Positions 4,411 through 7,652 of a DNA stretch of 64,000 bases are shown piece after piece. The stretch comes from Bacteriovoracaceae bacterium (GTDB taxonomy: Bacteria > Bdellovibrionota > Bacteriovoracia > Bacteriovoracales > Bacteriovoracaceae). The position numbers were made by a program, and so were the translations under genes. The notes below the pieces were generated by a model. It worked only from the letters and a program-made list of their open reading frames with translations. It ran no database searches and was not told the origin of the DNA. The stretch covers positions 46,761 through 110,760 of the forward strand of contig JAIEMA010000023.1 of assembly GCA_019752535.1 (NCBI GenBank). The letters run 5' to 3'. Positions within the stretch are counted from its first letter, which is position 1; each line of letters starts with the position of its first letter.

Positions 4411-4701
4411 ATGAAATTTATCGTCATGTTTTTGTTAGTAGTTTTAACGGCCTGTAGTTCTTCACCAGGGAATTTAACTGATCTTGGCAAAGAAGTTCAG
4501 ATTCTTGATTCTAAACCCGGGAGCGAGTGTAGCGTCGTGGGTAAAGTTGTAGGAGAAAATGAGCAGGGCAGTATTGATTTGGCGAGAAACCATGCCAGAA
4601 ATTTGGGTGGAAAGCTTAAGGCTAACTCTATCTTTATTAATCAAGAAGTTCCAAACGGTCAGAAGTATCAGGTTTTCGCGACTGCTTATCAGTGTGAGTA
4701 G
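4411..4701 (+). CDS. Small lipoprotein resembling DUF4156
   Basis: A 96-residue protein with a clear signal and lipobox (VVLTAC, Cys15), followed by a compact domain: a cysteine before a VVGKVVG strand, a helix IDLARNHARNLGGKLKANSI, and a closing strand with a C-terminal cysteine (TAYQCE). This Cys...G-V-G...A-N-LR-N...GAN pattern is what I know from DUF4156/RcsF-like small lipoproteins; the assignment is by pattern only. AAGGAG precedes the ATG at good spacing. Its last 13 bases overlap the 3' end of the convergent MerR-type regulator. An envelope-stress sensor role is possible but unsupported here. Confidence 0.65.
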   Translation: MKFIVMFLLVVLTACSSSPGNLTDLGKEVQILDSKPGSECSVVGKVVGENEQGSIDLARNHARNLGGKLKANSIFINQEVPNGQKYQVFATAYQCE

Positions 4702-5627
4702 ATCTTAAGAAATTGATCAAGACTTTCAAGAGATAGGAGAAGTTCAACTCCTATCTCTTCAATCTCATTCTTCACATAGGGTTTAATATTTCCCCCTACA
4801 ATAATCTTAATTTTTGAATCAATTTTGCTTTTAAAAGATTTTAGATATTCTTGTAACGTTTGAGTGTCAGAAATTTCATGCCCTTTAGTGACTCCCAAAA
4901 TGACTGTCGTCGGATTCATTTGATTAATTGTCTGCGACAAGGATTCAGCCGGAAGGTCTTTTCCTAAATAAAGAAATTGAATTTTATGTTGAACACAAAG
5001 CAGGCACGCAGTGAGAAGTCCTATCTCATGCAATTCTCCCTCTGGAGCCGCTAGAATAATGAGTCCAGGCTTGAAATGTGAGCGTGTGTAGTGAAGTGCA
5101 ATAACTTGACCCATATGAAATTGAACAATTGCACTTAGGGTGTGTTCTTGAGCAATGGTGAGTTTTCCTTGCGACACTCGAAGACCAATATCTCTAAAAA
5201 GTGGAAGTATAATCTCTAGTGCAAAATCTCTAGGCCCTAAAAAACGCTTAGCTTTGTCGAGCTCATAGGAAATGATATCTAATTTATAAAGTGAGAAGGC
5301 AAGAAGAATTCCGGAGCGAATTTTTTCCGAATCAAAATCTTTGGTTTTTCTTTCAAGAAACTGCTCAACAGGATCAAATTCTTTGTCTTTAGAAATTAAT
5401 TCTTTCAGCTCCTCGATGCTTTTCTGCGCAATTTTTCCAATTGAATGCCCACACTGTGTGAGAGATTGAAGCAATGTGAGTTTCTCAATATCAGCTTCTG
5501 TGTAGAGACGATGACCATTCTCAGCTCTATCTGGCGCTAAAACTTTATACCTCTTCTCCCAAGCTCGAATGGTTGCTGCGGCCACACCTGAAAGCTGCGA
5601 CGCGATATGTATGTTAAATAATGACAT
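4689..5627 (-). CDS. MerR-family regulator with CarH-like cobalamin-binding domain
   Basis: The track extends this ORF to 5909, but the MerR domain begins at MSLFNIHIAS, giving a start at 5627 and 312 residues; the longer form would run into acs. Residues 4-70 are a MerR winged helix (GVAAATIRAWEKRY, GHRLYTEADI). Residues 90-175 match the B12-binding helical bundle and 185-312 the Rossmann-like cobalamin domain with E198-L-H200-E-I-G, the lower-ligand motif. The CarH W-x9-EH motif appears as V151-x9-E161-H162, and the residue after the Trp position, the light-state histidine in CarH, is Ser152. It therefore probably binds B12 but may not use CarH photochemistry. It is divergent from acs with 87 bases between starts, so acs is an obvious candidate target. 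Confidence 0.82.
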   Translation of the reverse strand: MSLFNIHIASQLSGVAAATIRAWEKRYKVLAPDRAENGHRLYTEADIEKLTLLQSLTQCGHSIGKIAQKSIEELKELISKDKEFDPVEQFLERKTKDFDSEKIRSGILLAFSLYKLDIISYELDKAKRFLGPRDFALEIILPLFRDIGLRVSQGKLTIAQEHTLSAIVQFHMGQVIALHYTRSHFKPGLIILAAPEGELHEIGLLTACLLCVQHKIQFLYLGKDLPAESLSQTINQMNPTTVILGVTKGHEISDTQTLQEYLKSFKSKIDSKIKIIVGGNIKPYVKNEIEEIGVELLLSLESLDQFLKIYSH

Positions 5628-5714
5628 TAGAAAAGAATAACAGAACTGATGCAGGATTTGATTGTTTTTCTGACTCACGCTCTGGAAAATGGTTCTCAAA
5701 TGAGGAGTTTTTTT

Positions 5715-7652
5715 ATGTCTGAAATTTATCCTGTAAAAAGTCGTGTCCAATCTAAATCCTATCTCAAGGATTTTGCCACATATGAAGCACTCTATAAGAG
5801 ATCTCTTGAAGAGCCAGAAAAGTTTTGGCTTGAAGTCTCTCAACGACTTGACTGGAGCACCTCTCCAAAAACGGCCGGACGAGGAGATTTTACCAACGTG
5901 AATCATCAATGGTTTTCGGGCGGAAAGTTAAATGCCTCATACAATTGTTTGGATCGTCATTTAGAAACGCGCGGAAATAAAACGGCCATCATTTGGGCCA
6001 AAGATGCGCCGGGAGAGTATGAGCATATTTCGTACTCCCAACTTTATGCTCAGGTTTGTAAAACGGCGAACATGCTTGAAGCTCACGGAGTAAAGAAAGG
6101 TGATCGCGTCTGCATTTATCTTCCCATGATTCCAGAGCTCACTTATAGCGTTTTGGCCTGTGCGAGAATAGGCGCTATTCATTCTGTCGTTTTCGGTGGA
6201 TTTAGCTCTGAAGCTCTGAAGGGACGTATTCTTGATGCTGAATGTAAAGTCGTGATCACGGCAAATGAAGGACTTCGCGGTGGTAAAACAATTCCTCTTA
6301 AAGCGATTACTGATGAAGCTGTGAAAGATGCAGCAGTTGTTGAAAAAGTTTTTGTGGTGAACCGTACAACGACTCCTTGGACACCAAGAAGTGTGGATGT
6401 GGTTTGGAATGAAGAGATTTTAAAGTATCGTCCCGTGGCGCCCGCCCCAGCGCATGATGCAGAAGATCCACTCTTTATTCTTTATACCTCAGGCTCAACT
6501 GGTAAACCGAAAGGTGTCATGCACACCACCGGAGGCTATCTCACTTATGCGAGCTACACCCATCAATATGTCTTTGATTATCACGAGGAAGATATTTATT
6601 TCTGTGCTGCCGATATTGGATGGGTGACGGGACATAGTTATATCGTTTATGGACCTCTCTCCAATGGGGCGACTTGTGTGCTCTTCGAATCTGTTCCTAA
6701 CTATCCAGATGCTGGACGTTACTGGCAGATTATTCAAGATTTAAAAGTGAATATTTTCTATGGAGCTCCCACAGCTCTTCGTGCCCTTGCTCAAGCGGGT
6801 GATGAGATTGTGAAAAAATATGATCGCTCCTGTCTTCGCATCTTAGGAAGTGTAGGAGAGCCGATAAATCCTGAAATTTGGAAATGGTATCATGATGTGG
6901 TGGGAGAAGGGCGTTGTGACATCATGGATACATGGTGGCAAACAGAAACGGGTGGCATTCTTATGACTCCAATCCCAGGAGTGACTCCTACAAAGCCTGG
7001 ATCTGCCACGTTTCCTTTCTTTGGAGTTGAGCCGTTATTAGTGAAGCCAGAATCGGGAGAAGTCCTCAATGGAAATGAAGTGGAAGGGGCTTTGTGTTTA
7101 AAGCGCTCTTGGCCTGGTCAAGCAAGAACCATTTATCGCGATCATGCTCGCTTCATTGAAACTTATTTCTCTCAATATAAGGGTCTCTATTTCACTGGAG
7201 ATGGCTGCAAGCGTGATAAAGATGGATACTACTGGGTAACGGGAAGAATTGATGATGTCTTGAATGTCTCTGGCCACAGACTTGGTACGGCTGAAGTCGA
7301 GAGTGCGCTTGTCGAGCATGATGCTGTCGTTGAAGCTGCGGTGGTGGGATATCCTCACGATATCAAGGGCCAAGGAATTTATGCGTATGTAGTTCTGTAT
7401 CCAAAATTTGGAGAGTCAGCGGAATTAATGGAGCAAATCAAAGATACCGTCCGTGATTCAATTGGAAGATTTGCAGCACCTGATAAGATTCATTTCACCA
7501 AGGGCTTACCAAAAACTCGCTCAGGAAAAGTGATGCGTCGAATTTTGCGTAAAATTGCGGCCCATGAATACACGGGCCTTGGAGATGTGAGTACTCTTGC
7601 TGATCCGACTGTGGTTGACGCTCTCATCAGTGAGCACAAAAAATCTCACTGA
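5715..7652 (+). CDS. acs: Acetyl-CoA synthetase
   Basis: A full-length AMP-forming acetate-CoA ligase of 645 residues. It activates acetate to acetyl-AMP and then acetyl-CoA in the cytoplasm. Visible blocks include the P-loop-like [18 protein letters not shown], the substrate-site region [10 protein letters not shown], the YFTGDG and [13 protein letters not shown] hinge region, and [15 protein letters not shown] with the conserved lysine that is acetylated in known Acs enzymes. The track start at 5649 is too early; ATG 5715 follows AGGAG with seven bases and begins MSEIYPV, typical for Acs. The gene is divergent from the B12-domain MerR regulator. The 3' end overlaps the convergent gene at 7646 by seven bases. 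Confidence 0.95.

Follow-up and report, generated by a model that had tools for sequence, protein, structure and literature searches.

A CarH-like regulator without the CarH Trp-His pair is conserved beside one subtype of the acetyl-CoA synthetase gene in Bacteriovoracaceae and very probably controls it

The stretch of DNA analysed here (the window, 64,000 nucleotides of a Bacteriovoracaceae genome) encodes a CarH-like protein that, to judge by its sequence and conservation, very probably controls the neighbouring acetyl-CoA synthetase gene, acs. Our preferred reading, to which we assign a probability of about 0.6, is that the protein is a dedicated acs regulator of CarH/LitR-type ancestry, a dimeric repressor that does without the CarH switch and probably binds cobalamin through His200. 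The features concerned are these:

4689..5627, minus strand: CarH-like regulator with MerR and B12 domains, 312 aa, stop included (ORF and translation, Pfam, PDB search, TtCarH alignment)
5424..5612, minus strand: MerR helix-turn-helix domain, residues 6-68, with RAWEKRY as recognition helix (Pfam and family alignment)
5118..5249, minus strand: four-helix-bundle portion of the B12 region, residues 127-170, B12-binding_2 (Pfam, structure model)
5172..5177, minus strand: Val151-Ser152, at the site of CarH Trp131-His132 (alignment)
5142..5147, minus strand: Glu161-His162, the EH of the Wx9EH motif, retained (alignment)
5019..5036, minus strand: ELHEIG (198-203), with His200 as predicted lower cobalt ligand (alignment)
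4782..5063, minus strand: Rossmann-type B12-binding domain, residues 189-282, with GG at 278-279 and Gly245 for the Ser of SxT/V
5628..5714, no strand: 87-bp divergent intergenic region, by position a shared promoter, with no detectable CarH-type 11-bp repeat
5715..7652, plus strand: acs, acetyl-CoA synthetase, 645 aa from the conserved start (TIGR02188, conservation)

The regulator starts with an ATG, verified from the ORF and its translation. Its neighbour was identified by TIGR02188 (acetate-CoA ligase, 951.5 bits against a cut-off of 725), and conservation supports an acs start at 5715 and not the longer ORF start at 5649. The two genes are divergent across an 87-base gap, as an earlier reading of the sequence alone (the sequence-only reading) had stated. 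On the other side, the end of a small convergent DUF4156 lipoprotein gene (window 4411-4701) reaches 13 bp into the regulator across its stop codon; the lipoprotein gene was found again in most acs-linked loci.

The MerR_1 domain (PF13411) of the regulator scored 52 bits in Pfam (E=6e-14), and B12-binding_2 and B12-binding were detected, both under the Pfam cut-offs; the latter match (PF02310) spans residues 189-282 (E=3e-5). CarH of Thermus thermophilus (TtCarH) was the top PDB match by sequence and by fold. Foldseek with an AF2 model ranked TtCarH 5c8d first (E=3.6e-13), with a CBD TM-score of about 0.8 by target. The model, of moderate confidence (mean pLDDT 68, 5 sequences), was used for fold assignment only, and it predicts both the four-helix bundle and the Rossmann cobalamin domain.

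Many CarH proteins have, next to the Trp of the Wx9EH motif, a His that serves as the upper ligand in the light state. In TtCarH, Trp131 stacks on the adenosine and drives tetramer formation and His132 is the light-state ligand; after illumination, an H132A variant remains for the most part a tetramer (PMC10442372). The G192Q variant halts at dimers, and D201R abolishes tetramers (PMC8221060). We mapped the window protein onto complete TtCarH, from plasmid pTT27. V151-S152 align with W131-H132, E161-H162 with E141-H142, and H200 with H177. The Wx9EH motif accordingly reads V151-x9-E161-H162, with S152 in place of the upper ligand; none of the 33 acs-linked proteins introduced below has His at this position. 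The cobalamin domain holds no second Trp: W23, in the DNA-recognition helix, is the sole Trp of the protein, which leaves no room for a Trp-His pair at another place on the cobalamin face, an arrangement that the sequence-only reading had named as evidence against itself. That reading's description of a retained MerR head, helical bundle and ELHEIG, and of V151-x9-EH with Ser in place of His, agrees with the MerR_1 match and the complete alignment.

Of the B12 motif E/DxHx2G-x41-SxT/V-x22-27-GG, the window protein has ExHx2G, the x41 spacing and GG; Gly245 replaces the Ser and the last spacing is 30. The tetramer contacts R176-D201, G160 and G192 are replaced by L199, D224, Y180 and, at the G192 position, Lys; the acs clade has mostly L/M, N/S, Y and G there. 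Because of the Lys at the G192 position and the Leu at R176, a TtCarH-type tetramer is unlikely to form, and we consider it probable that the protein has no CarH-type light switch.

The association with acs was followed by tblastn-type searches with the regulator and with acs over 129 genomes of the family. The window's acs subtype, defined by an identity of 64% or more to the window gene, occurs in 32 genomes. The regulator stands divergent beside it in 31 of these; only G021 has the acs subtype and lacks the regulator. The other family genomes carry an acs of 50-56% identity, beside which the searches matched no CarH-like gene. Across 22 larger loci the regulator and acs are always adjacent, with 7 gene clusters beyond acs and 7 beyond the regulator, and the pair persists through insertions and rearrangements on both flanks in four genus-level groups. 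Lipoprotein genes beyond the regulator are also often retained. The maximum-likelihood tree places 28 acs-linked proteins on one branch (SH-aLRT 100) and the acs-linked L052 (G063) just outside it; the acs-linked proteins may have a single origin. In several genomes of the large genus g37, a HAMP-GAF histidine kinase gene and two companion ORFs (clusters c50, c51) lie beside the regulator (L109, L110, L117, L139), an insertion that leaves the regulator-acs pair undisturbed.

CarH operators are tandem 11-bp repeats, nnnnTnnACAn (PMC9304148), and the T. thermophilus carH promoter, the positive control, has three TnnACA in 11-bp phase. We compared 100 non-identical family members from the phylum, 33 acs-linked and 67 others. 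At least two TnnACA in 11-bp phase were present in 46 of the 67 non-acs promoters (shuffle mean 1.5, maximum 5) and in only 2 of the 33 acs-linked ones (shuffled mean 0.6). In the proteins, residue 18 is His in 57/67 non-acs members and Ala in 31/32 of the acs clade; at residue 39, Arg in 57/67 gives way to His in 31/32. The window regulator has the Ala18 and His39 characteristic of the acs-linked clade. As read from these residues and promoters, DNA recognition appears to have shifted along with the target in this clade.

Two species of the window's genus have tandem 11-bp repeats in the acs gap. In G116 (L113; C85 about 5424-5454), AAACTTAGAAT stands three times in tandem (31/33 pairwise matches, 0/300 shuffles); G115 has a degenerate set of three (21/33 pairwise matches, 0/300 shuffles). 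The repeats occupy the stretch from about 64 to 31 nt upstream of the acs ATG and resemble AAACCTAGACA, the repeat at a paralogue's promoter. Searched genome-wide in five congeners with at most 2 mismatches, the repeat doublet was matched 7 times, and 6 of these sites lie upstream of CarH-like genes; reversed as a control, the pattern was matched 6 times. The window gap, 5628-5714, has no 11-bp repeat (12/33, P=0.76), as is the case for most acs-linked promoters, and the canonical operator nnnnTnnACAn was sought there and rejected. In g37 the gap has conserved overlapping divergent promoter elements, which we read as -35 and -10 boxes; the window gap is without elements of this g37 type. The best triple match in L034 (G097) overlaps the acs start codon and ribosome-binding site, and we took it for a chance match.

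From this evidence we infer control of acs, repression and a dimeric state. The regulator, derived from a CarH/LitR-type ancestor, would act on the adjacent acs and probably also on itself, with several subunits bound, in the manner of CarH, to tandem 11-bp repeats overlapping the acs promoter. Its action would most simply be repression from the short promoter shared with acs, because the G115/G116 repeats lie where the acs promoter should be. The CarH switch would go unused, since Trp131 and His132 are absent and the tetramer contacts changed, and the regulator would work as a dimer, like CarA. Cobalamin, probably bound through His200, may modulate, in the dark, how the protein dimerises or binds DNA. 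Several observations count against this explanation: the window gap and most acs-linked promoters have no 11-bp repeat; G021 has acs without the regulator; the cobalamin signature is imperfect, with Gly for the Ser of SxT/V and a GG spacing of 30 against 22-27; and the acs-linked orthologues of G082 and G091 lack the ligand His. The sequence-only reading had proposed a dark B12 or redox sensor controlling acetate activation. Its missing Trp/His switch and its acs link stand, the latter on the pair in 31 of 32 genomes, the clade-specific DNA-binding residues and the repeats of the two congeners; its B12 or redox sensing stays hypothetical.

The evidence on B12 as the signal points both ways. 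Among the acs-linked proteins E141 is kept in 32/33, H142 in 31/33, H177 in 31/33 and G180 in 32/33, and Trp131 and His132 in 0/33; the 31 proteins other than those of G082 and G091 show almost no variation in EH, ExHx2G and GG. The host genome has methylmalonyl-CoA mutase (MCM), methionine synthase (MetH) and a PduO-type adenosyltransferase. The two exceptions retain the acs pair: the G082 orthologue (L053) reads ER and EQQSVG, its cobalt-ligand His gone, and that of G091 (L123:4967-5935) has lost all B12 signature residues. Loss of B12 use was rejected as the cause, both genomes having adenosyltransferase and methylmalonyl-CoA mutase. The window regulator is probably still able to bind cobalamin, and we put a cobalamin-dependent signal at not quite an even chance. 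More tentatively, a cobalamin-form sensor without a light switch may set acs expression by way of His200-bound cobalamin, an open upper face without Trp and binding of the dimer to the acs promoter; acyl-CoA entry would then be tied to B12 status in bacteria with an AdoCbl-needing methylmalonyl-CoA mutase. As another link between B12 and acetate, the ethylmalonyl-CoA pathway was rejected for the window's genome, which has no crotonyl-CoA carboxylase/reductase over the cut-off and no isocitrate lyase. Cobalamin riboswitch control was rejected as well, there being none in the genome.

M. xanthus CarA, the B12-independent CarH paralogue, is a dimer that CarS inactivates. The window regulator could likewise be independent of B12, its B12 fold a dimerisation scaffold and its signal a partner protein or another acetate-linked metabolite, which we regard as unlikely, though it is the strongest of the alternatives. 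It accords with the two ligand-less orthologues still paired with acs in genomes equipped with adenosyltransferase and mutase, and with the precedent of CarA, which shares the motif pattern (no Trp, EH and ExHx2G retained) and binds B12 without needing it (PMC9304148, PMC8156234); neither B12 nor its motif is required for CarA repression (PMC9304148, PMC8156234). The near-invariance of EH, ExHx2G and GG in the other 31 acs-linked proteins weighs against such independence, as does their absence from the paralogue in the same genome. No CarS-like partner gene was noticed beside the pair; the known homologues of CarS all belong to myxobacteria that are relatives of M. xanthus (PMC8156234).

The sequence-only reading had held that the regulator "has lost" the Trp. 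This is wrong for the window gene, as Trp is missing from every family member found in the phylum: it occupies the Trp131 position in 0/100. The 33 acs-linked proteins all have Val, Ile, Ser or Leu there, and 48 of the 67 others have Val. Because the position is never Trp in these 100 proteins, V-x9-EH is, on sequence grounds, taken to be an old trait of the Bdellovibrionota CarH-like lineage. Many non-acs members adjoin epimerase/DUF1731, photolyase, CFA-type fatty acid synthase, DUF1365, amine oxidase or lipocalin genes. Such clusters are of the kind that CarH controls elsewhere. They are also of the kind under LitR control (PMC9758184). The Trp-less V-x9-EH proteins L082-L086, L054 and L058, beside photolyase, CFA synthase, DUF1365 and amine oxidase genes and with canonical CarH operators, are possible photoreceptors without Trp. 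The missing Trp alone is no proof of a missing light function, because we found no experimental test of the V-x9-EH relatives in light-type clusters, and a loss of light chemistry, as the sequence-only reading put it, is unsafe to claim. The window's own genome has a second CarH-like regulator (L042:5001-5939, contig C31), next to epimerase, truncated amine oxidase, patatin and aldehyde dehydrogenase genes, a light-type context. Its EH and lower-ligand motifs are gone, and its own promoter retains TnnACA repeats.

These relatives, with their photolyase, cyclopropane-type fatty acid synthase, DUF1365, amine oxidase and epimerase neighbours and canonical operators, are what favours a cobalamin photoreceptor that functions with another kind of upper face, in which V-x9-EH proteins would bind adenosylcobalamin and acs would be light-controlled. 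We hold this to be very unlikely for the window regulator: Trp131 and His132 have their roles in stacking and light-state ligation, H132A remains mostly tetrameric after light (PMC10442372), and position 132 varies more within the acs clade than any other pocket position (entropy 2.9 bits). The gene itself speaks against it too; we know of no light response in which acs takes part. Least probable is that the pair is conserved synteny only and the regulator controls other genes, as the missing operator in the window gap and the often retained lipoproteins might suggest, since the pair has, in four genus-level groups, withstood insertions and rearrangements to either side and the G115/G116 gap repeats occur almost nowhere else in those genomes.

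In the open-access literature that was searched, which leaves most subscription journals outside, we came across no paper that connects acs with a CarH-like regulator or with B12 status. If dedicated control of acs is true, a CarH-family regulator would serve central carbon metabolism, not pigments or photoprotection, and its recruitment to acs would show in DNA-binding residues and operators that changed together. The Trp-less V-x9-EH group of the phylum, including light-cluster members with canonical operators, would test the need for Trp in B12 photoreception.

With CarH (T. thermophilus, M. xanthus, B. megaterium; class I LitR), which is its best PDB match by sequence and fold, the window regulator shares the architecture, the RxWE(K/R)RY helix, the EH and ExHx2G...GG motifs and, in the two congeners G115/G116, 11-bp repeats at the target promoter. 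It differs in lacking Trp131/His132, in its altered R176, G160 and G192 contacts, in the Gly for Ser in SxT/V, and in having acs, not carotenoid genes, as neighbour across a gap without a canonical operator. It is not a CarH by the published definition, because both signature motifs, Wx9EH and the B12 motif, are required (PMC8156234). Class II LitR (PplR/PmlR of Pseudomonas) belongs to the same wider family, is MerR-type and has no CarH light switch; unlike the window regulator, which keeps the Rossmann domain and ligand motif and for that reason is not class II, it acts together with a LOV protein and has no recognisable Rossmann B12 domain (PMC9758184). Other Bdellovibrionota CarH-like regulators (L042, L054, L083) also lack Trp at the Wx9EH position, most reading V-x9-EH (e.g. 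L054, L083), but lie next to epimerase, photolyase, CFA synthase, DUF1365 or amine oxidase genes and combine TnnACA operators with His18/Arg39; L042 is without the EH and ligand motifs. CarA likewise has no Trp of Wx9EH and keeps EH and the B12 motif, a likeness of motif state only, as the window regulator is of an independent lineage with no carotenoid genes or CarS beside it. The best reading of these comparisons is of a regulator CarA-like in motif pattern and of a separate lineage.
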